Positions 13,127 through 60,139 of a DNA stretch of 64,000 bases are shown piece after piece (within the stretch, counting starts at the first letter, position 1; each line of letters starts with the position of its first letter). The DNA lies in the NCBI GenBank assembly GCA_030651575.1, contig JAUSFB010000032.1, forward strand, positions 334,001 to 398,000, written 5' to 3'. This DNA is from Phaeospirillum sp. (GTDB lineage: Bacteria; Pseudomonadota; Alphaproteobacteria; Rhodospirillales; Magnetospirillaceae). A model generated the notes under the pieces. It was not told the origin of the DNA. It saw nothing but the letters and a program-made list of their open reading frames with translations, and searched no databases. Both the position numbers and the translations under genes were made by a program.

Positions 13127-13954
13127 TCAGGCCAACACCACTTCCATGCCGTCGCGGGCCGCCATGGCCCCGTCCCAAGTCCTGACCGCCTCGGCCTCGA
13201 TCTCCGCCATGATGTCATCGGTGTGTTCGGGATCGTGGTGGAAAATCGCCAGACGCTTGACACCATTGGCCTGCGCCAGCCTCACTGCCTCCTGCCATGT
13301 GGAGTGCCCCCAACCGATCTTGGTCGGAAACTCGGCATCGGTATAGGTGCAGTCATAGATCATCAGATCGACCCCGCTGATCAGCGCCGCCACATTGGCG
13401 TCGGGCTGGCCGGGGTGATGCTCGGTATCGGTGATATAGGCGACGGAGATGCCGCCATACTCGATCCGATAACCGCAGGCGCCATTGGGATGGCGCAACG
13501 GGCCGGTGCGGACGGTCACTCCCGCGAAAGGAGTAAAGATGGTTCCGACATCGAAATCCTCGTAGGATGAAATGCCCTGCATGGCCGCCAGCGGAACCGG
13601 GAAGTTCGGCGTTTCCATCTGGTGATTCAGCACATGCTGGATTCCCTTGGGACACCCCTCCAGCCTCGCCCCATGGATGTGGAGCTTGAAGGCCGGATTA
13701 AAGGCCGGCGCGAAGAACGGAAAACCGTTGATGTGATCCCAATGGGCGTGGGTAAAGAACAGATGGGATTCCATGACCCCATTGCGGATAAGATCGCGAC
13801 CGAGCGAACGAATGCCGGTTCCCGCATCGAAGATCACGACCCCGGCATCGGTTGTTATGGCGATACAACTGGTGTTGCCGCCATAAACCACATGATCGGG
13901 CGAAGGACAGGCGATGCTCCCGCGCACCCCCCAAAACTTCACCGTGTACCGCAT
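13127..13954 (-). CDS. MBL-fold metallo-hydrolase
   Basis: This 275-residue cytoplasmic protein begins 'MRYTVKFWGVRGSIACP', typical of the RNase Z/PhnP-like branch of metallo-beta-lactamase hydrolases. The HxHxDH metal motif is present in 'FTHAHWDHINGF', with later ligands in 'YITDTEHHPG' (Asp) and 'AIFHHDPEH' (His). Members act as phosphodiesterases or as parts of signalling systems; the substrate is unknown. An upstream in-frame start at 14014 exists, but ATG 13954 begins the conserved strand and has GGAG nine bases before it. It converges on motB with three bases between stops. Confidence 0.85.
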   Translation of the reverse strand: MRYTVKFWGVRGSIACPSPDHVVYGGNTSCIAITTDAGVVIFDAGTGIRSLGRDLIRNGVMESHLFFTHAHWDHINGFPFFAPAFNPAFKLHIHGARLEGCPKGIQHVLNHQMETPNFPVPLAAMQGISSYEDFDVGTIFTPFAGVTVRTGPLRHPNGACGYRIEYGGISVAYITDTEHHPGQPDANVAALISGVDLMIYDCTYTDAEFPTKIGWGHSTWQEAVRLAQANGVKRLAIFHHDPEHTDDIMAEIEAEAVRTWDGAMAARDGMEVVLA

Positions 13955-14059
13955 CAATTCACGCTCCGTATAACCGTCGCCGACTAGGTTATCCCTATCT
14001 CGGCAAACTCCCATATGTATTTGGTCACACTAACGCAAAAAAATAAGTGAAAACCCGGA

Positions 14060-50717: not shown

Positions 50718-51236
50718 ATGAACGAAGCCGTTCAGCAACACCCCGAACCACCCGCTTCCATCCCACATTGGCGCCGCGAGGACCCCACCTGTCGGAAGGA
50801 TCCGTTCCGACGGCTGATGGTATGGCCGCTGGAGAGTCTGCTGACGCGCCAGCCGCCGGAAGTCTCCCGGGACTTCCTGGATCACTACTTCCAATTCCTC
50901 GATATCCTGTTCGCCGAAGAGATGGGAGGTTACGAGCGCCGCTGCCGCATGGTGCTGCAAGCCCTGCGCGTGATCCATGGCCAGTCCCTGACCTGGGATG
51001 TATTCTACGCGGACCCCCGTACCAATCGCATCCTGACGCATGCATTGCGCCGCCTGATCACCTTCCTGGATAGTCCGACCGGCCGCTGGGCTTGGCCCCA
51101 CACGGTGTCTCGCCCCAGTAAAAGCGGCCATACCCCGACGTCGGAAGAGGCTGAACAGGTCATCCTCACCCTGCGCGACGCGTGGAGAAATGCCGAGTTC
51201 AACTCCGATCCCACGGAGGAGGCGCGCGGCGGATAA
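50718..51236 (+). CDS. Hypothetical protein (172 aa)
   Basis: No family is recognised. The 172-residue soluble protein is mostly helical, with 'VSRDFLDHYFQFLDILFAEEMGGYERRCRMVLQALRVIHG' in the middle (positions about 49-89) and a more polar C-terminus. The ATG is preceded by AAGGGGGAGCCG, a strong ribosome-binding site. It lies between the polyamine importer and the PaaX-type regulator on the same strand; no function is proposed. Confidence 0.6.
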   Translation: MNEAVQQHPEPPASIPHWRREDPTCRKDPFRRLMVWPLESLLTRQPPEVSRDFLDHYFQFLDILFAEEMGGYERRCRMVLQALRVIHGQSLTWDVFYADPRTNRILTHALRRLITFLDSPTGRWAWPHTVSRPSKSGHTPTSEEAEQVILTLRDAWRNAEFNSDPTEEARGG

Positions 51237-51307
51237 AATTCCGGGTTGCTCGAATCCGCCGCATGGTTAGGATGTGCCGGGAAAATCGACTACTTCAGGC
51301 AATTCGC

Positions 51308-52240
51308 ATGAACCGCCGGATCGGCGACATCGTCACCCAGACTTTCGAACGGCTTCGCCCCAAGGCGAAATCGCTGATCATCACCGTCTATGGCGACGCC
51401 ATCTTGCACCATGGCGGCTCGGCTTGGCTGGGCAGCGTGATCAAACTGGTCGAACCACTGGGCCTGAACGAGCGCATCGTGCGAACCTCGGTGTTCCGCC
51501 TGTCCAAGGAAGAGTGGCTGGCCTCCAGCCAACTCGGCCGCCGCAGCTATTACCGCCTGACCGATCTGGGCCGCCGCCGCTTCGAGGCCGCCAACAGCAG
51601 GATCTACTTCCATGTCAGCCAGCCATGGGACGGTCGCTGGACCCTGGTGATCACCAATACCGCCGATATCGATTCCGAAAAGCGCGACATGATCCGCCGC
51701 AATTTCGGCTGGATCGGTTTTGGCCAGATGGCCAGCGGCATCATGATTCATCCCGACCCGGATACGACCGTGATGCGTCAGGTCCTGGCGGATCTGGGGG
51801 TAGCCGAACAGGCGGTGGTGATGACCGGCGGCGTCGAGGCGGGCTTTTCAACCGCCGCCCTGGACACCATGATCCACAACTGCTGGGATCTGAAACGACT
51901 GGCCGACGACTACACCGAATTTCTCGATATCTTCCGGCCGCTGTGGCAGGTCCTGAGCGCCAGTGGCGAGCTTGACCCGCAGCTGTGCTTCGTGGTCCGC
52001 ACGCTGCTGATGCACGGCTACCGCCGCGCCCTGCTGCGCGACCCCATGCTGCCGGACGAACTGTTGCCCGCCAACTGGCCGGGAACCTCGGCCCGCCTGC
52101 TATGCCGCAACCTGTATCGTCTGGTCCAGGCGGCGGCGGAAACCCACGTCATGAGTGTGCTGGAAACCGCCGAGGGGCCGGTGCCGGAGGCCAGCCCCAA
52201 CTACTACACCCGGTTCGGCGGGCTACAAGCCGGCGACTGA
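51308..52240 (+). CDS. paaX: PaaX-family transcriptional regulator
   Basis: This 310-residue regulator matches PaaX, the phenylacetyl-CoA-responsive repressor. Its N-terminal winged helix 'AKSLIITVYGDAILHHGG…WLGSVIKLVEPLGLNERIVRTSVFRLSKEEWL' (residues about 19-80) is followed by 'RWTLVITN' and a C-terminal domain with 'LVRTLLMHGYRRALLRDPMLPDELLPANWPG'. In the frame an ATG at 51263 gives a longer N-terminus; 51308 matches the family start. The adjacent pad genes act downstream of phenylacetyl-CoA, so this regulator may control them. It converges on the MBL-hemerythrin gene, with four bases between stops. Confidence 0.88.
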   Translation: MNRRIGDIVTQTFERLRPKAKSLIITVYGDAILHHGGSAWLGSVIKLVEPLGLNERIVRTSVFRLSKEEWLASSQLGRRSYYRLTDLGRRRFEAANSRIYFHVSQPWDGRWTLVITNTADIDSEKRDMIRRNFGWIGFGQMASGIMIHPDPDTTVMRQVLADLGVAEQAVVMTGGVEAGFSTAALDTMIHNCWDLKRLADDYTEFLDIFRPLWQVLSASGELDPQLCFVVRTLLMHGYRRALLRDPMLPDELLPANWPGTSARLLCRNLYRLVQAAAETHVMSVLETAEGPVPEASPNYYTRFGGLQAGD

Positions 52241-52244
52241 GTCT

Positions 52245-54860
52245 CTAATACACGCCCTTTGAGTTGAGGTAGACCGCCGCCCGGTGATCGTCGGACAGGG
52301 TGTGGCCAACGATCCATTCCTGAAGGAAGGTCAGCACCTCGACCTCGTTATAGCCCTCGCCCTCGGCGATGGTGGTCTGCAACTCGGTCAACTGCTCCAG
52401 CAACCGGAAATGCCGGTTCTTATGGTTGTGCAGTTCGGGATACTTGTAGCGGATCATCAACCCTTCCTCTTCATCGAAGTGGAAGCGGGCGTATTCGCGC
52501 AGCAATCCCATGGTTTCGGCTATTTCATCATCGGAGCACCCCCGCTCCATCAGATCAAGCGCGGAATTGGCGATCTCGAACAGACGGCGGTGGTGGCTGT
52601 CGATGCGCTGAACCCCGACCGAATATTCGTCATGCCACTTGATCAGGACGCGGGCGTGCACGCCAGCCTCCATCATGGCTCGGGTCCGCTTGTTGCTGGC
52701 CTCGAACAGCTTCCAGCGAACCGAGGGGATATCGCGCAGCGCATGGGCGGGAACCAGGAACACCTCGCACGGTTCCAACGCGCGGACCCGCAGCAGGCTG
52801 GGCGAACCAAAGATCGCCACATCCTCGCCAAAAAAATCGCCAACCTTCAGGGTCTCGAACATGTGATCGCCCAGGAAGCGGCCAGCAATTCCGGACTTGA
52901 TCATGCCGACCATGTCGTGGCCGGGCTCGATCACAACGTCAACCTTGGCGGTGCAACTGGTCATGGCCTGGGCGATGCGGTTGAGTGATTTCGACGACAC
53001 CACCTCGCCGAACAAGCTGGTGCGCAACAGAAATTCGCGGTGTTCCAGCAGCCGCGAGACTCCCTTGAACACGTTGTTGCGCCGAACGAATTCGGAATAG
53101 AGCGAACACGGAATGGCCAAGGCCTGCACGAAGCTGGCGGCGCGGTAGGTCTCGGACGCGGCGGCGCCGAACAGCCCGGACAATTCGCCGATCAGGGCGC
53201 CGGCCGACAGCACGGAGCGCATCTCGATCTCGATCGGGATCATTTCGACGCTGCCCGACAGCAACAGATAAATCTGATCGTTGACCACCCGCTCCTTGAC
53301 CAGGATGGTTCCGGGATTGAAGGTCACAACCGGGTTATTGAGCAACACCCGGATCTGATGACGCGGAATGCCGGGAAAATAGGCGTCCAGCGCCTCGTAG
53401 GCATAGGGCCAGATGAAGTCGTGGTTGGACGGGATCAGGACATCGACGGTTCCGAACGACGCCGAGGACCCGATAGCCTTCTGGGCGCGGGTATTGCGCT
53501 GCGAGGTATGGGCCAGGATAATCTTGTCGGATGTATCGTCGCGGAAGTCATAGGCGTCGCCGTGGATCATGCCGCCGCCGACATCGATTTTCTTGACGTC
53601 GGCCGGCTCCAGATAGTCCGCCGCAACCTGATCGTACATGGCCTGACTGATGCCCGGAGCCTCGGGATCATCGGTGATGAAGCTTTGCAAGACCGACAGG
53701 CGGGCGATATCGGCCAGATGGGAATAGGTGCGGTTGCCGCCCTCCCACATGGCGCGGAAATGCATGATGGTGGTCTCGACCGGATGGGGCGAGAACACCG
53801 GCTTCACCTCCAGGCCGTCGATCAGATTCCACTCTCCCTCCACCAGCGGGCAGACATCGAAATAGTCGGAGAAGGCGGCCTCGTCGATGGACAAAAGCGC
53901 GGCGACCTTCTTGGCCACCGATGCCCGGACCAGGGGGGTCGCATAGTATTTCAGCTTGTGATCCGAGCGGATCAGGGTGGTCAGGCCGGCAAAGTGGTCG
54001 TCATGGGAGTGGGTATGGAAAATACCCTCGATCTCGTTGACGCCGATTCCCAGCGCATTCAGTGAAAACAGGACGTTGGGGCCGGCATCGACCAGGAAGA
54101 CCTTGCCCTGAAACATGATGATGGAGGCCATGCTGGGCCGATTGATGTCCCAACCATCCCCCTCGCCGCAATGGATGACGGCGAAATACTCGCGACGCAG
54201 CCGATAATAGCCCAGCGGGTAGGGCGCCTCGTAACTCTCGAAGGATGGCAGGTTAAGATCCACCACCGCCGTCTCGCCCTGATAGGAGAACTCGAACACG
54301 TTGAACAGCATGCGGCGGACAGTCACGCCGTTGCGGATCTCCACCGAATCGGCATCCACCGCCAGGGTGTCCAGCAGGTCGCCGGGGTGACGGATCTTGC
54401 CAAAAGCGAATTTCAGCTTCATCCGCATCAATTCGTGGGCGCGCTTGGGGGAAAGGCCGGCCTCGACCATCTCCTCTTCGGTCACCAAGCCGTAATTGCC
54501 GCGATAGATGTACTGCATCTGCGCCTGGACCTGATCGGCGCTGCCGATCAGCAACGGCTTGACCCCGGTATTGCCGGGGTGATCGGGCAGGATCATGCCC
54601 TGGCGATAGAGCATTTGCAGGACGGGAAACTCGGCCAGATTGGAGAAATTACCATTCTGAACCATGGCGTCGGACAGCAAGATGGCGTTAGGGCCGGTCT
54701 CGAAGGCAATTCCGTCGATCTCGGTCGAGACGATCAACCCCCGCTTCATCAGGTGCTTGACCGCATCGGCCGGGCAGCCGCACAAGATGGACACCCCCGC
54801 CAAAGGAGCCTCGATCCACCAAACTCCGGTGGTGACTTCGATTTTACGAAGCAACGGCAT
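52245..54860 (-). CDS. MBL-fold / dual cNMP-binding-like / hemerythrin fusion protein
   Basis: This 871-residue soluble protein has four parts. An N-terminal region of unknown fold (1-220) is followed by an MBL domain (about 222-500) with H284-x-H286-x-D288-H289 and candidate later ligands His359, Asp384 and His433. Two cyclic-nucleotide-binding-like domains follow (about 504-600 and 625-715, each with a GELSG or GEDVAIFG turn but without a clear Arg-Ser/Ala phosphate cassette). The C-terminal bacteriohemerythrin domain (about 742-866) has all seven diiron ligand positions: His757, His794, Glu798, His813, His817, His853 and Asp858. ATG 54860 is chosen because GGGAGAGG precedes it; a TTG eight codons earlier is unlikely. 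It probably senses O2, NO or iron; its enzymatic substrate is unknown. Confidence 0.9.
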   Translation of the reverse strand: MPLLRKIEVTTGVWWIEAPLAGVSILCGCPADAVKHLMKRGLIVSTEIDGIAFETGPNAILLSDAMVQNGNFSNLAEFPVLQMLYRQGMILPDHPGNTGVKPLLIGSADQVQAQMQYIYRGNYGLVTEEEMVEAGLSPKRAHELMRMKLKFAFGKIRHPGDLLDTLAVDADSVEIRNGVTVRRMLFNVFEFSYQGETAVVDLNLPSFESYEAPYPLGYYRLRREYFAVIHCGEGDGWDINRPSMASIIMFQGKVFLVDAGPNVLFSLNALGIGVNEIEGIFHTHSHDDHFAGLTTLIRSDHKLKYYATPLVRASVAKKVAALLSIDEAAFSDYFDVCPLVEGEWNLIDGLEVKPVFSPHPVETTIMHFRAMWEGGNRTYSHLADIARLSVLQSFITDDPEAPGISQAMYDQVAADYLEPADVKKIDVGGGMIHGDAYDFRDDTSDKIILAHTSQRNTRAQKAIGSSASFGTVDVLIPSNHDFIWPYAYEALDAYFPGIPRHQIRVLLNNPVVTFNPGTILVKERVVNDQIYLLLSGSVEMIPIEIEMRSVLSAGALIGELSGLFGAAASETYRAASFVQALAIPCSLYSEFVRRNNVFKGVSRLLEHREFLLRTSLFGEVVSSKSLNRIAQAMTSCTAKVDVVIEPGHDMVGMIKSGIAGRFLGDHMFETLKVGDFFGEDVAIFGSPSLLRVRALEPCEVFLVPAHALRDIPSVRWKLFEASNKRTRAMMEAGVHARVLIKWHDEYSVGVQRIDSHHRRLFEIANSALDLMERGCSDDEIAETMGLLREYARFHFDEEEGLMIRYKYPELHNHKNRHFRLLEQLTELQTTIAEGEGYNEVEVLTFLQEWIVGHTLSDDHRAAVYLNSKGVY

Positions 54861-55401: not shown

Positions 55402-55974
55402 ATGCATGAGGTACGCCTTCATGGTCGGGGTGGACAAGGCGCCGTCCTGGCATCGGCTATTCTTGCCGCCGCTTTGGTGGAAGAAGGCCAGCACGTCATG
55501 GCCATTCCGGCTTTCGGCTTTGAACGCCGCGGGGCGCCGGTGGTGGCTTTTCTGCGCCTGTCCGAACAGGTCATCCGCCGCGTCACCAATATCTATCACC
55601 CCGATATCGTGGTGGTGATCGATCCCACGGTGGTCCGGGCGGTCGACGTCTTCGCCGGTATGCCGCAAAACGGGACCTTCGTCCTGGCCACTAGCAAGCA
55701 GCCCTCCGAACTGGATCTGCCCGGCCATCTTGCCCGGGTCGCCGTCTGCGACGCGGTTCGGATCGCCATGGAGATCTTCAAGCGCCAGATCACCAACACT
55801 ATCATGCTGGGAGCCCTCGCCAAGGCGACCGGAGTGGTGTCGGTCGAGGCGCTGGAAAAGGCGCTGGAGAAGACCGACTTCCGTGACGCGGGCCTGCGTC
55901 AGAATATCGAGGCGGTGCGGCGCGGCTATGCCGAAACCTCCGTGATCGAGCTTGGCAAGGAAAAGGCGGCATGA
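55402..55974 (+). CDS. padE: Phenylglyoxylate dehydrogenase, gamma subunit
   Basis: This 190-residue protein is the gamma domain of 2-oxoacid:acceptor oxidoreductases: 'EVRLHGRGGQGAVLASAILAAAL', 'AFGFERRGAPVVAFLRLS' and 'NTIMLGALAKATGVVS'. It is the first gene of a five-gene set in the order gamma-delta-alpha-NAD(P)H-binding-beta, the same as padEFGHI of Azoarcus evansii, which encodes NADH-dependent phenylglyoxylate dehydrogenase (CoA-benzoylating). The stop overlaps the padF start by four bases. Confidence 0.85.
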   Translation: MHEVRLHGRGGQGAVLASAILAAALVEEGQHVMAIPAFGFERRGAPVVAFLRLSEQVIRRVTNIYHPDIVVVIDPTVVRAVDVFAGMPQNGTFVLATSKQPSELDLPGHLARVAVCDAVRIAMEIFKRQITNTIMLGALAKATGVVSVEALEKALEKTDFRDAGLRQNIEAVRRGYAETSVIELGKEKAA

Positions 55975-56246
55975 GCACCCACGGCCGGAACGTTCCCGAC
56001 AATATGTGCCCCGTCGCCACCGAGTACACCACCATGCTGACCGGCGACTGGCGGGCGATGCGCCCGGTGGTCGACCGCGACCGCTGCGTCAAATGCGCCA
56101 CCTGCTGGCTGTATTGTCCGGTGCAGTGCGTGGTGGAAAAATCGGCATGGTTCGATTTCAACTACGACACCTGCAAGGGCTGCGGCATCTGCGCCGAAGA
56201 GTGCCCGCATCGCGCCATCAGCATGGTTGAAGAGGCGGAGGGCTGA
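55971..56246 (+). CDS. padF: Phenylglyoxylate dehydrogenase, delta (2x[4Fe-4S] ferredoxin) subunit
   Basis: The 91-residue ferredoxin-like subunit has two C-x2-C-x2-C-x3-C motifs, CVKCATCWLYC with a later CP pair and CKGCGICAEECP, and holds two [4Fe-4S] clusters. The N-terminal 35 residues are typical of the delta subunits of 2-oxoacid oxidoreductases. It moves electrons from the thiamine site towards the NAD(P)-binding subunit. One base separates its stop from the alpha-subunit start codon. Confidence 0.87.
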   Translation: MSTHGRNVPDNMCPVATEYTTMLTGDWRAMRPVVDRDRCVKCATCWLYCPVQCVVEKSAWFDFNYDTCKGCGICAEECPHRAISMVEEAEG

Positions 56247-56247
56247 C

Positions 56248-57450
56248 ATGAGCAAGGTTATCGTTTGCGACGGCAACGAAGCCGCCGCCTGGGGGGCCTG
56301 CCTGTCGCGTCCCGACATGGTGGCGGTTTATCCCATAACGCCACAATCCTCGCTGGTCGAGTATCTGGCAAAGTTCATCGCCGAAGGCAAGATGACCGCC
56401 GATCTGGTGGATGTGGAGGGCGAGCATTCGGTGCTGTCGGTTCTGCACGGCGCCTGTCTGGCCGGAGCGCGGACCTACTCCGCCACATCGGCCCAGGGCC
56501 TGGCCTTCATGTTCGAGCCGTATTTCCGTACGCCCAGCCTGCGCATGCCCATGGTGGTGTCGCTGGTCACCCGCGACGCGGTGTCTCCCACCTGCGTGTG
56601 GGGCGGCCAGCAAGACGCCATGACCGTCAAGGAAGTCGGCTGGATCCACATGTACTGCGAGACCCAGCAGGAAATCCTCGACACCATCCCCATCGCCTAC
56701 AAGGTCGCCGAGCATCCGGACGTGATGTTGCCGGTCAACGTCAACCATGACGGCAACTACCTGTCCTACGGCGTGGCGCGGGTCGAACTTCCCGACCAGG
56801 AGATCGTCGACTCCTTCCTGGGCGAAAAGAACGTCAACTGGCATGCCTGCCTCGACCCCGAGCGCCCCATGGCGGTTGACCCGCTGACCGGCGGCGCTGG
56901 CGGCATCGGACCGTCCACCTTCGTCAAGTACCGCAAGGGCCAGTGTTCCGGCATGCAGATGGCGTTGCAGGTGATCGAGGAGGCCCATGCCGACTGGGGC
57001 AAGCGTACCGGCCGCTACTGGTCGCCGCTGATTGAGGAATACCGTATGGAGGACGCCGAGGTGGCGCTGGTCACCATCGGCTCCATGACCGGCGCCGCCA
57101 AGGACGCGGTGGACGAGGCCCGGCTGGATGGGCGCAAGGTCGGCATCGTCAAGATCAAGACGTTCCGCCCCTTCCCCGTCCAGCGCATCGCCAAGGCGTT
57201 GTCCAAGGTCCGCGCCATCGGCGTGGTGGACCGCGCCGTCAACTTCGGCTGGAACTCCGGTCCGGTGTTCCAGGAAGTCCTGGGGGCGCTCTACCACCTG
57301 CCGGTCCGCATCCCGGCCATGAGCTTCATCGGCGGTCTGGCCGGTGCCGACATCACCGTCGAGCACTTCGCCCGCGCCATCGACCGTACCAACCGGCTTG
57401 CGGCGGGCGAGGCTGCGACCTTGCCGGTCTGGCTGAACGAGAACGATTGA
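56248..57450 (+). CDS. padG: Phenylglyoxylate dehydrogenase, alpha subunit
   Basis: The 400-residue alpha subunit has the pyrimidine-binding 'VAVYPITPQSSLVEYLAKFIAEGK', 'VEGEHSVLSVLHGACLAGARTYSATSAQGL' and a C-terminal transketolase-like domain ('VALVTIGSMTGAAKDAVDEAR', 'GIVKIKTFRPFPVQRI'). The longer frame to 56227 is inside padF, and the ATG at 56248 begins the family N-terminus. It binds thiamine diphosphate together with PadI. Confidence 0.88.
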   Translation: MSKVIVCDGNEAAAWGACLSRPDMVAVYPITPQSSLVEYLAKFIAEGKMTADLVDVEGEHSVLSVLHGACLAGARTYSATSAQGLAFMFEPYFRTPSLRMPMVVSLVTRDAVSPTCVWGGQQDAMTVKEVGWIHMYCETQQEILDTIPIAYKVAEHPDVMLPVNVNHDGNYLSYGVARVELPDQEIVDSFLGEKNVNWHACLDPERPMAVDPLTGGAGGIGPSTFVKYRKGQCSGMQMALQVIEEAHADWGKRTGRYWSPLIEEYRMEDAEVALVTIGSMTGAAKDAVDEARLDGRKVGIVKIKTFRPFPVQRIAKALSKVRAIGVVDRAVNFGWNSGPVFQEVLGALYHLPVRIPAMSFIGGLAGADITVEHFARAIDRTNRLAAGEAATLPVWLNEND

Positions 57451-57458
57451 GGTCAAAC

Positions 57459-58709
57459 ATGCCCGAGGCAAAATACCTTCTCGTCGGCTCGTCTCACGCT
57501 GCGTTAGAGGCGCTCCGCTCGATCCGCCACTTCGACCCGGACGGGTCCATGGCGATGATCACGCGAGACCAGCAGCTGCCCTATTCCCCGACCATCCTGC
57601 CCTATGTGGTGTCGGGGCGGTCCAAGCCGGAAGCGGTGCTGTTGCGGGACGAGGCCTTTTTCGAGGCCAATGCCTGCACCTTCGCGCCCAACGCGGTGGC
57701 GACGGGACTGGACGCCAAGACCCGCTCGGTCACCCTGGCCAGCGGCGAGTCCTGGCGCTACGAGCGCCTGCTGATCGCCACCGGCGCGGCCCCGGCCATT
57801 CCGCCGGTCAAGGGGATCGAGACCGTGCGCTTCCACGTCCTACGCTCGCTGGACGACGCCCAGGGATTGCGGACCGCCATGGGCGGCGCACGCCATGCCG
57901 TGGTGCTGGGCGCCGGTCTGGTGGGATTGCACGCCGCCGAGAACATGGCCGAGGCCGGCCTGTCGGTCACGGTGGTGGAAATGCAGAACCACGTCCTGCC
58001 CGGCTATTTTGACGCCAAGGCGTCCGAACGGATCGAATCCGCCTTTATCGGCCACGGGGTCAAGCTGCTGCTCGGCTGCAAGGTCGTGGCGGTCGAACCC
58101 CGCGACGGCGGCCATTCCTGCGCCGTGCATCTGGAAGACGGCAAGGTGCTCCAGGCCGACCTGCTGCTGGTGGCCACCGGCGTCAAGCCGGTAACCGACT
58201 GGCTGGCCGGATCGGGGGTCGATCTTGACCGCGGCGTACTGGTGGACGAAACCATGCGGACCACCGCCCCGGATGTGTGGGCGGCGGGTGACGTGGCCCA
58301 GGCCACCGACTTCCATACCGGCAAGCGCGCCCTGATCGGCATTATCCCGACCGCCGTGGATCAGGGCCGCATCGCCGGCCAGGGCATGGCGGGCGACACC
58401 TATCAAAAGGCCTATCCAGGCGGCATTCCGGTCAACACCTACCGCTTCTTCGGCCGGGTGGCGCTGTCCATCGGCCAGGCCGCCGCCAGCGACGGCGTCG
58501 AGGTCTCCGAGCGCGAGGATGGCGGGTATCGCCGGCTGGTGATGTCCGACAACCGCCTGATCGGCTATGCCAGCATCGACGAGCCGTTCGACGTGGGAAT
58601 CATGGGCGAACTGATCCGCCGCAAGGTCGATCTGTCTCCCGTCATGGATGCGTTCATCGCCCGGCCGGTGGAAACCGGACGTCGGCTGATGAGCGAGCAG
58701 TGGAGGTAA
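57459..58709 (+). CDS. padH: Phenylglyoxylate dehydrogenase, NADH-binding FAD (epsilon) subunit
   Basis: The 416-residue flavoprotein of the pyridine nucleotide-disulfide oxidoreductase fold has an N-terminal FAD strand 'KYLLVGSSHAALEALRSIR', 'LLIATGAAPAIPPVKG', the NAD-binding 'AVVLGAGLVGLHAAENMAEAG' and 'DVWAAGDVAQATDFHTGKR'. No redox disulfide is seen, as expected for an NAD-reducing subunit rather than a disulfide reductase. Its presence inside a 2-oxoacid oxidoreductase operon distinguishes phenylglyoxylate:NAD+ oxidoreductase from ferredoxin-linked relatives. Confidence 0.87.
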   Translation: MPEAKYLLVGSSHAALEALRSIRHFDPDGSMAMITRDQQLPYSPTILPYVVSGRSKPEAVLLRDEAFFEANACTFAPNAVATGLDAKTRSVTLASGESWRYERLLIATGAAPAIPPVKGIETVRFHVLRSLDDAQGLRTAMGGARHAVVLGAGLVGLHAAENMAEAGLSVTVVEMQNHVLPGYFDAKASERIESAFIGHGVKLLLGCKVVAVEPRDGGHSCAVHLEDGKVLQADLLLVATGVKPVTDWLAGSGVDLDRGVLVDETMRTTAPDVWAAGDVAQATDFHTGKRALIGIIPTAVDQGRIAGQGMAGDTYQKAYPGGIPVNTYRFFGRVALSIGQAAASDGVEVSEREDGGYRRLVMSDNRLIGYASIDEPFDVGIMGELIRRKVDLSPVMDAFIARPVETGRRLMSEQWR

Positions 58710-58714
58710 GCCCC

Positions 58715-60139
58715 ATGGGCGCGGCATTCGATACCATCGCCTTCAAGGCATCCCTGTGCGACGGCTGCGGCGACTGCATGACCACCTGTTCCAAGGTCAA
58801 GCAGGGCGCCAGCCGGATCTCCATCGTCCCCGGCGCGGCCGAGGCCGTCTTTGAACTGGCGATCTGCCGCCAGTGCGGCGACCCCAAATGCGCCATGGTC
58901 TGCCCGTCGGGCGCCCTGACCAAGGACGGCGGCTCGGGCGTGATCGGCTGGAACTCCGACAAGTGCATCGACTGCCTGCTCTGCACCGCCGGCTGCGCCT
59001 ATGGCGGCATCGCGGTGGATCAGTCGGTCTCGCGCGTCGCCAAGTGTGACCAGTGCGACGGCGACCCGGAATGCGTCAAGGCCTGCCCCACCGGCGCGCT
59101 GGAATTCCGCAAGGCCGGCAGCATCTACAAGGAATACGGCGAGCGGGAAGACCTGTTCGTGCCCGGCCTGTCGGGCTGCCTGGGCTGCAACTCCGAACTG
59201 ATCATGCGCCACGCCATGCGCAAGATCGGCCGCAACTCGGTGCTGGCGACACCGCCTGGCTGCATTCCCGGCATGGGCTCGGTCGGCTATAACGGCAAGA
59301 CCGGCACCAAGGTTCCGGTGTTCCATCCGCTGCTGACCAACACCGCCTCCATGCTGGCCGGCATCCGTCGCTATTACGACAAGATCGGCCGCAAGGATAT
59401 CGTGGTCATGGCGCTGGCCGGCGATGGCGGCACCGCCGATTGCGGCTTCCACGCCGTCTCGGGCGCGGCCGAACGCGGCGAGAAGATCTTGTATGTCTGC
59501 GTCGATAACGAAGGCTACATGAACACCGGCATGCAACGTTCGGGAACCACGCCCTACGGTTCGTGGACCTCGACCACTCCGGTGGGCGAGCATATGAAGG
59601 GCAAGACCCAGGATGCCAAGAACCTGCCCATGATCATGGCGGCCCATAAGTGCCGCTACGTGGCCACCGCGTCCACCGGCTACATGGAAGACCTCTACGA
59701 GAAGCTGGACAAGGCGATCGAAGCGTCGTTCGAGGGCTTCTCCTACCTGCACATCTACTCGCCCTGCCCCACCGGCTGGCGCATTCCGTCCTCCAAGGTG
59801 ATCGATGCCTGCCGCCTGAGCGTCGAGACCAACTTCGTCACCCTGTGGGAATACACCCCCCAGACCGGAATCCGCTTCACCCGCTCGCCCGACAACGCCC
59901 TGCCGATCACCGCCTATGTCAAGATGATCGGCAAGTATCGCCACCTGTCCCAGGACCAGCTCGACCACATCCAGACCAAGGTGGACGAGCAGGTCGCGCT
60001 GCTGCGGATCATGGCGGCGGAATCGCCCCCGCCCCCGCCGGCGCACAGGCAGCCGGCGGCTCCGGCCGCCTCTCCCGCTCCGGCCATCGGGGGCGACGCC
60101 TCGCAACCGCCGGTCCGCCGGGAAATTTCACGGAACTAA
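58715..60139 (+). CDS. padI: Phenylglyoxylate dehydrogenase, beta subunit with N-terminal poly-ferredoxin domain
   Basis: The 474-residue protein has an N-terminal four-cluster ferredoxin domain (about 1-150): CDGCGDCMTTC, CRQCGDPKCAMVC, CIDCLLCTAGC and CDQCDGDPECVKAC, sixteen cysteines in the DmsB-like pattern. The thiamine-diphosphate-binding beta domain follows, with 'LGCNSELIMRHAM', 'GDGGTADCGFHAVSGAAERG' and 'DNEGYMNTG'. After about residue 435 a Pro/Ala-rich tail of some 40 residues, with a run of five prolines, is extra. GGAGG precedes the ATG at 58715. A terminator follows the stop. Confidence 0.88.
   Translation: MGAAFDTIAFKASLCDGCGDCMTTCSKVKQGASRISIVPGAAEAVFELAICRQCGDPKCAMVCPSGALTKDGGSGVIGWNSDKCIDCLLCTAGCAYGGIAVDQSVSRVAKCDQCDGDPECVKACPTGALEFRKAGSIYKEYGEREDLFVPGLSGCLGCNSELIMRHAMRKIGRNSVLATPPGCIPGMGSVGYNGKTGTKVPVFHPLLTNTASMLAGIRRYYDKIGRKDIVVMALAGDGGTADCGFHAVSGAAERGEKILYVCVDNEGYMNTGMQRSGTTPYGSWTSTTPVGEHMKGKTQDAKNLPMIMAAHKCRYVATASTGYMEDLYEKLDKAIEASFEGFSYLHIYSPCPTGWRIPSSKVIDACRLSVETNFVTLWEYTPQTGIRFTRSPDNALPITAYVKMIGKYRHLSQDQLDHIQTKVDEQVALLRIMAAESPPPPPAHRQPAAPAASPAPAIGGDASQPPVRREISRN

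Follow-up and report, generated by a model that had tools for sequence, protein, structure and literature searches.

In Dictyostelium, the class IIb phosphodiesterases (PDEs) GbpA/PdeD and GbpB/PdeE are described, in the passages cited here, as intracellular enzymes in which a metallo-beta-lactamase-fold (MBL) domain is followed by two cyclic nucleotide-binding (CNB) domains, through which the phosphodiesterase is activated (PMC11988041, PMC3188802), and a PdeE homologue is mentioned in Physarum (PMC4758236). Here we analyse a bacterial gene with the same core order, located at positions 52245..54860 (minus strand) of a 64,000-nucleotide stretch of a Phaeospirillum sp. genome (contig JAUSFB010000032.1), which we call the window. 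Its 871-residue product combines a predicted degenerate MBL lobe (pseudo-MBL), a catalytic MBL domain, two CNB-fold modules and a hemerythrin domain (open reading frame, Pfam, and AlphaFold2 model), and looks like a sensor-plus-hydrolase. We take it for a class II phosphodiesterase-like enzyme of two lobes whose sensor can be exchanged, a hemerythrin in this case, and whose substrate and gating we infer. Since GbpA and GbpB have been characterised with the same order, MBL-CNB-CNB is a known arrangement and the phosphodiesterase interpretation gains support. The likeness is one of domain order, and there are clear differences: the window protein is bacterial, has HSHDDHFA where GbpA and GbpB have HCHADHDS, lacks the CNB arginines, and has, in its pseudo-MBL half and hemerythrin tail, two parts that do not appear in the cited descriptions of the Dictyostelium proteins.

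The catalytic domain has its best fold and profile match in Apyc1, with motifs II-IV aligned. Apyc1, YhfI, and yeast PDE1 are presented in the cited text as class II phosphodiesterases, Apyc1 being a homodimer that requires E74 and Y112 from the opposing protomer (PMC9117128). Apyc1 is a short protein without CNB domains or sensor, whereas the second lobe of the window protein would be a fused degenerate copy. A degenerate and a catalytic MBL half within one chain are also found in long RNase Z (ELAC2), and both halves align, although the RNase Z family score of the window protein is far below cut-off. We know of no CNB domain or sensor in long RNase Z. The long form is believed to have arisen from the short one by tandem duplication (PMC2942849), and the same two-half plan is seen in the window protein. 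As for the tail, bacteriohemerythrin domains are joined to signalling enzymes or a receptor in Bhr-HD-GYP, Bhr-DGC, and DcrH, but their outputs are HD-GYP, GGDEF, or a chemotaxis receptor. The cited part of a 2022 review lists Bhr-HD-GYP as the only known hemerythrin-domain sensor phosphodiesterase, and one diguanylate cyclase plus one HD-GYP phosphodiesterase type as the characterised hemerythrin-coupled enzymes of cyclic di-GMP (c-di-GMP) (PMC9388753); a paper on hemerythrin evolution reports 56 architectures, of which the three named in its text, as cited, differ from the one described here (PMC4919030). The initial sequence-only reading of the gene knew of no characterised protein with this order. 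This must be withdrawn for the core, given GbpA/GbpB, and stands for the full five-part architecture, of which no description was found in the CC-licensed PMC literature.

Sensor domains exchanged on a conserved core

The gene starts with an ATG at 54860 and stops at 52245; an alternative upstream TTG would add eight residues, and the alignment of most relatives begins at residues 1-6. Pfam matches of the whole protein, all over cut-off, were to cNMP_binding (7.6e-15, two stretches), Hemerythrin (7.7e-10), and Lactamase_B (1.3e-8), with no Pfam match in residues 1-225. The full-chain AlphaFold2 model, based on 74 sequences, reached a mean predicted confidence (pLDDT) of 88.5 and a predicted template modelling score (pTM) of 0.88, and in it a helix (residues 712-732; 52665..52727, minus strand) links the second CNB module to the sensor tail. 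Conservation was counted over 75 distinct family sequences extracted from whole-genome and contig searches (alignment A1 omits locus L079; A2 and A3 omit L046, L047, L049, L050, and L079). The HxHxDH metal site at residues 284-289, the two modules of cyclic nucleoside monophosphate (cNMP)-binding fold, and the C-terminal diiron hemerythrin with seven ligands, all proposed by the sequence-only reading, were borne out, and domain searches support both the cNMP and the hemerythrin folds. The N-terminal ~220 residues, which it had left as an unassigned domain, can be assigned to a degenerate MBL lobe by predicted fold, sequence profiles having given nothing.

The bacteriohemerythrin domain spans residues 739-867 (52260..52646, minus strand), as seen by Pfam, NCBIfam, VIA-align, and conservation. 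The NCBIfam bacteriohemerythrin domain matched at 6e-30, over cut-off, and VIA-align placed the tail on DcrH-Hr (2avk, Z 20.2, 132 residues, 1.6 Å). It is a four-helix domain with the complete set of five His, one Glu, and one Asp ligands typical of bacteriohemerythrins: H757, E798, H813, H817, H853, and D858 are identical in 52/52 hemerythrin-bearing members, and H794 is kept in 50 of the 52, with Cys in the other two.

The block formed by the pseudo-MBL, MBL, and two CNB modules is constant across 114 distinct members, after dropping duplicates and rows with a core match shorter than 420 residues, while the sensor attached to it changes. By single-seed phmmer searches, 71 members bear a C-terminal hemerythrin, 14 an N-terminal receiver (one of them has both), and five an N-terminal SBP_bac_3 domain; in the remaining 25 none was found, a class that includes contig-truncated rows (e.g., L163) and N-terminal extensions without assignment (L119, L175, and L177). 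Pfam confirmed all four examples given, namely the receivers of L101, L107, and L069 (the latter together with a hemerythrin) and the SBP_bac_3 of L109. On a quick tree, which carries long-branch warnings, the sensor labels require at least 12 changes. In one case (L105) a solute-binding histidine kinase adjoins a receiver-bearing member, and in five others (L109, L111-L113, and L115) the same type of solute-binding sensor forms one chain with the core. These swaps make the strongest case for the block as an output of signalling, and because relatives bear receiver or solute-binding domains on the same core, they also support the sensor role that the sequence-only reading had given to the hemerythrin.

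In the five solute-binding members (L109:1618-4755, L111, L112, L113, and L115), SBP_bac_3 and a likely membrane helix precede the block, an arrangement that would make it an output on the intracellular side. Two members (L119:401-3040 and L175:5089-7722) have an N-terminal extension of ~145 residues that looks, in our reading, like a degenerate receiver. The window genome itself (G000) gave 33 hemerythrin-domain matches in 4.2 Mb, several of them within long open frames.

The two MBL lobes and the CNB pair

The catalytic MBL domain comprises residues 225-477 (53430..54188, minus strand; VIA-align, profile search, and hhalign). Its HSHDDH motif, of the HxHxDH type (residues 284-289; 53994..54011, minus strand), supplies H284, H286, D288, and H289, followed on the same strand by H359 of motif III (53784..53786), aligned with the Apyc1 His, D384 of motif IV (53709..53711), aligned with the Asp of the Apyc1 'SADT', and H451 of motif V (53508..53510), assigned only by its place after strand 446-450. 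All seven positions are identical in 75/75 family sequences, so that the protein has, with motif V taken by position, the HxHxDH and the His, Asp, and His of motifs III-V that define the dinuclear MBL superfamily hydrolases. The best VIA-align match was Apyc1 (7u2r, Z 23.5, 220 residues, 2.6 Å). Next, with Z between 22.1 and 21.1, came MBL proteins of Brucella in complex with GMP or AMP, PqqB, YhfI, and RNase Z, and yeast PDE1 was also among the matches (Z 19.3). Apyc1 was the top match as well when the MBL-domain profile was searched against PDB sequences (1.1e-7), and hhalign with six Apyc1-type viral-contig proteins plus one fragment gave 98% (1.5e-13), matching motif II, motif III, and D384 with motif IV. 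The RNase Z model TIGR02651 reached 1.4e-10 on the same domain, i.e., 40.7 bits, below its cut-off of 292.95.

Residues 1-222 (54195..54860, minus strand) are, as modelled, a second, degenerate MBL lobe without metal ligands (own model, Foldseek, and VIA-align). Modelled separately they reached pLDDT 92.4, Foldseek returned Apyc1 as the best match (5.1e-5), and VIA-align also put Apyc1 first (7t28, Z 11.5, 149 residues, 2.9 Å), with RNase Z 1y44 (Z 11.0) and the N-terminal half of ELAC2 (Z 9.3-10.2) among further matches; all 50 VIA-align matches listed have the MBL fold, judging from their titles or from our own reading. Human ELAC2 entries aligned over residues 1-477 of the model (372-377 residues, 3.9-4.1 Å). 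In a secondary-structure register of our own reading, the live-lobe ligands H284, H286, D288, H289, and H359 correspond to G56, N58, I60, L61, and about N187 of the N-terminal lobe. Mean column identity is 68% in the N-terminal region versus 69% in the catalytic domain (70 sequences). A by-eye register pairs 'AEF' and 'RGNYGL' of the N-terminal domain with 'EEF/EEL' and 'KGGL' of Apyc1, and would place E77 at the trans-acting Glu; it is a lead only, because profile comparisons failed.

The CNB modules, CNB-1 at residues 511-594 (53079..53330, minus strand; Pfam, model, and alignments) and CNB-2 at residues 634-704 (52749..52961, minus strand; model and alignments), belong to the CNB fold by Pfam PF00027 over cut-off, and Foldseek matched both to regulatory pairs of PKA and PKG. 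Of the Glu and Arg that mark the phosphate-binding cassette of cAMP/cGMP sites, the Glu is mostly kept (E559 in 57/75 sequences, E679 invariant in 75/75), but the Arg positions are occupied by A568 in CNB-1 and S688 in CNB-2, and ordinary cAMP/cGMP binding is doubtful because the Arg is absent from both. The suggestion that these modules bind a nucleotide thus keeps its fold and loses the canonical cyclic-nucleotide Arg. Among the Foldseek matches there are also kinetoplastid PKA regulatory subunits titled cAMP-independent, some of them guanosine-bound, a lead for nucleoside ligands only.

Genomic context and candidate function

Genes around the family were called with a simple caller based on GC at third codon positions (GC3) and identified by single-seed phmmer searches, using the 52 loci (out of 100) that had flanks of 3.5 kb or more on each side, and 40 control regions hand-picked from family-bearing genomes; the loci are not independent. 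Two-component, chemotaxis, c-di-GMP, or cyclase genes were found within 3.5 kb at 34/52 loci versus 12/40 controls (Fisher p 0.0015), or versus 17/40 (p 0.036) when genes that overlap the mock target are included.

Three members of the family occur in the window genome: the window copy, a second one on contig C79 (56% identical, with hemerythrin), and a third one on contig C74 (55% identical, without hemerythrin). The C74 copy comes last in an apparent operon (L062:8862-18051) after a FecR-like gene (our naming), a CHASE2 cyclase (Pfam CHASE2 and Guanylate_cyc), and a CHAT-TPR gene, and this four-gene set keeps its order and strand in all 15 genomes fetched (L062 and L228-L241) out of 17 available for the genus. 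In the five genomes examined for it (L061 and L251-L254), the C79 copy always has a histidine kinase and a cNMP-EAL protein as neighbours, and in four of the five a GGDEF protein as well. Elsewhere, a member is followed by an abutting open reading frame with Fer2 and cyclase domains (L074), and a tandem pair of members, just one of which has the hemerythrin tail, was seen at L249:8379-13400. An anti-phage system was discarded as an explanation, the PADLOC matches (E 0.0003-0.0014) being restricted to CNB-1 and pointing to TIR effectors.

The explanation we favour, at about even odds, is that the protein works in bacterial signal transduction as a hydrolase of a nucleotide messenger, gated by its sensor. 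The dead MBL lobe and the live dinuclear-metal lobe would pair within the chain as a pseudo-dimer like that of class II phosphodiesterase/RNase Z enzymes, in which the live site would most likely hydrolyse a cAMP/cGMP-like second messenger and the dead one would supply trans-acting residues, like the second protomer in Apyc1. The tandem CNB-fold modules may couple this catalytic pair to the sensor, so that O2, redox state, or NO would alter the diiron hemerythrin and, via helix 712-732 and the CNB modules, hydrolysis would go up or down; in relatives a receiver or an extracellular solute-binding domain would take the sensor place on the same block. We also envisage, more tentatively and as a rather doubtful extension, that the block serves bacterial signalling in general as an output, attached as GGDEF/EAL modules are to two-component, transmembrane, and oxygen sensors, and degrades a messenger not read by canonical CNB domains, its own CNB modules without the phosphate Arg binding another nucleotide or nucleoside; this would amount to an undescribed second-messenger pathway.

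A number of observations weigh against hydrolysis of such a messenger. MBL folds with HxHxDH occur in enzymes with many activities, and the Apyc1 Pfam model PF23023 scored 18.2 bits on the protein, against a cut-off of 50. Sequence profiles gave the N-terminal half no link to MBL or Apyc1 (hhalign 0.5% with the family's own MBL and 0.1% with seven Apyc1-type sequences; in hmmsearch of PDB sequences, two matches only, to ribonuclease 1, with E 0.67 and 1.2), and because they fail to show MBL kinship the assignment of that lobe rests on its confident predicted fold. Activation by cyclic nucleotides as in GbpA is doubtful, because Arg is found at position 568, a PKG-type phosphate-Arg position, in 0/75 sequences and at 688 in 7/75. 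Over all loci, cyclase neighbours were not enriched (2/52, L074 and L139, versus 1/40 controls), nor were c-di-GMP genes (11/52 versus 8/40). Outside the genus, neither a cyclase nor the FecR-like/CHASE2/CHAT-TPR/core set was found at the seven hemerythrin-less loci fetched (L242-L248). We rejected c-di-GMP itself as the substrate, as GGDEF/EAL/HD-GYP neighbours are common yet no more so than in controls.

Other functions have to be considered. The ELAC2 match of the pseudo-MBL and MBL halves, the TIGR02651 match of the latter (1.4e-10, far below cut-off), and the lack of any RNase Z over the TIGR02651 cut-off in the same genome would all fit a role in RNA processing, the protein being a bacterial nuclease similar to long-form RNase Z with activity set by oxygen or phosphorylation. 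We regard this as quite unlikely, since the score is 40.7 against a cut-off of 293, Apyc1 is nearer both by fold (Z 23.5 versus 21.1) and by profile, sensors and signalling neighbours are ill-suited to a housekeeping tRNA enzyme, and the genome has another RNase Z-like open reading frame, of about 300 aa, also below cut-off. A non-nucleotide substrate (lactone, sulfatase-like ester, or PhnP-type cyclic phosphate) would make the block a sensor-controlled metabolic enzyme; it is unlikely, with cyclic-nucleotide PDEs as best fold and profile matches, a genus-wide cyclase operon for one paralogue, and no pad genes beside 15/25 window-type orthologues (see below), even if PhnP-family diphosphatase, arylsulfatase, and PqqB folds come close behind in the ranking and pad linkage exists in part of the clade. 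Finally, the MBL metal site might bind a nucleotide or metal and signal by partner contacts, a relay without turnover modelled on ODP, an MBL-fold sensor in chemotaxis. CheC/CheD-like genes (our naming; one checked in Pfam gave nothing at 1e-4) do lie beside the receiver-bearing L107, L110, L114, L116, and L117, but strict conservation of all seven hydrolase-type ligands in 75/75 sequences is more than a protein that only binds would require, and ODP-like proteins carry a different ligand motif; we consider this relay very unlikely.

If the sensor-gated hydrolase is real, a new kind of regulated output enzyme would be added. We are dealing with a widespread family whose conserved MBL pair, complete in its metal site, is combined with oxygen-binding, phosphorylation, or ligand-binding sensors in different members; three inputs are thereby available for comparison on a single catalytic block, and a hemerythrin-less paralogue shares its operon with a candidate cyclase.

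Distribution and the neighbouring pad genes

Matches at E <= 1e-40 were found in 51/55 genomes of the window's taxonomic family and in 56 of the 398 sampled from the phylum, where at most two candidates were scored per genome and copy numbers are therefore lower bounds; with the profile at 1e-60, matches appeared in 5/385 genomes of the class. Named records correspond to Magnetospirillum/Paramagnetospirillum, other Rhodospirillaceae, and one labelled Terasakiella. Nothing matched in plasmids at 1e-30, and a two-pattern scan of viral contigs retrieved a single weak MBL relative, 26% identical over part of the domain.

In the window, the gene is flanked by a convergent PaaX-like regulator (51182..52240, plus strand; TIGR02277 3.3e-91 on 51248-52240) and by the divergent PadEFGHI phenylglyoxylate dehydrogenase genes (55402..60139, plus strand; NCBIfam equivalogs), both regarded as context only. 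The idea that orthologues would track with pad held in part: pad is adjacent in 10/25 window-type orthologues, divergent in four (window, L046, L047, and L049) and co-directional in six (L048, L050, L052, L058, L250, and L265), and was not found in the available flanks of the other 15 (L051, L053, L054, L057, L255-L264, and L266, the flanks of L261-L263 being short), nor was any close PadEFGHI match detected at the paralogue loci searched. Since this linkage is partial and absent at those paralogue loci, pad fails to explain the protein and was rejected as its function, although the two may share an anaerobic setting. L079, L102, and L142, all from one lineage, have another 2-oxoacid oxidoreductase nearby (32-38% identical). 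The window also contains an RNase Z-like MBL open reading frame of 295 aa at 13127-14014 (minus strand), scoring below the family cut-off.

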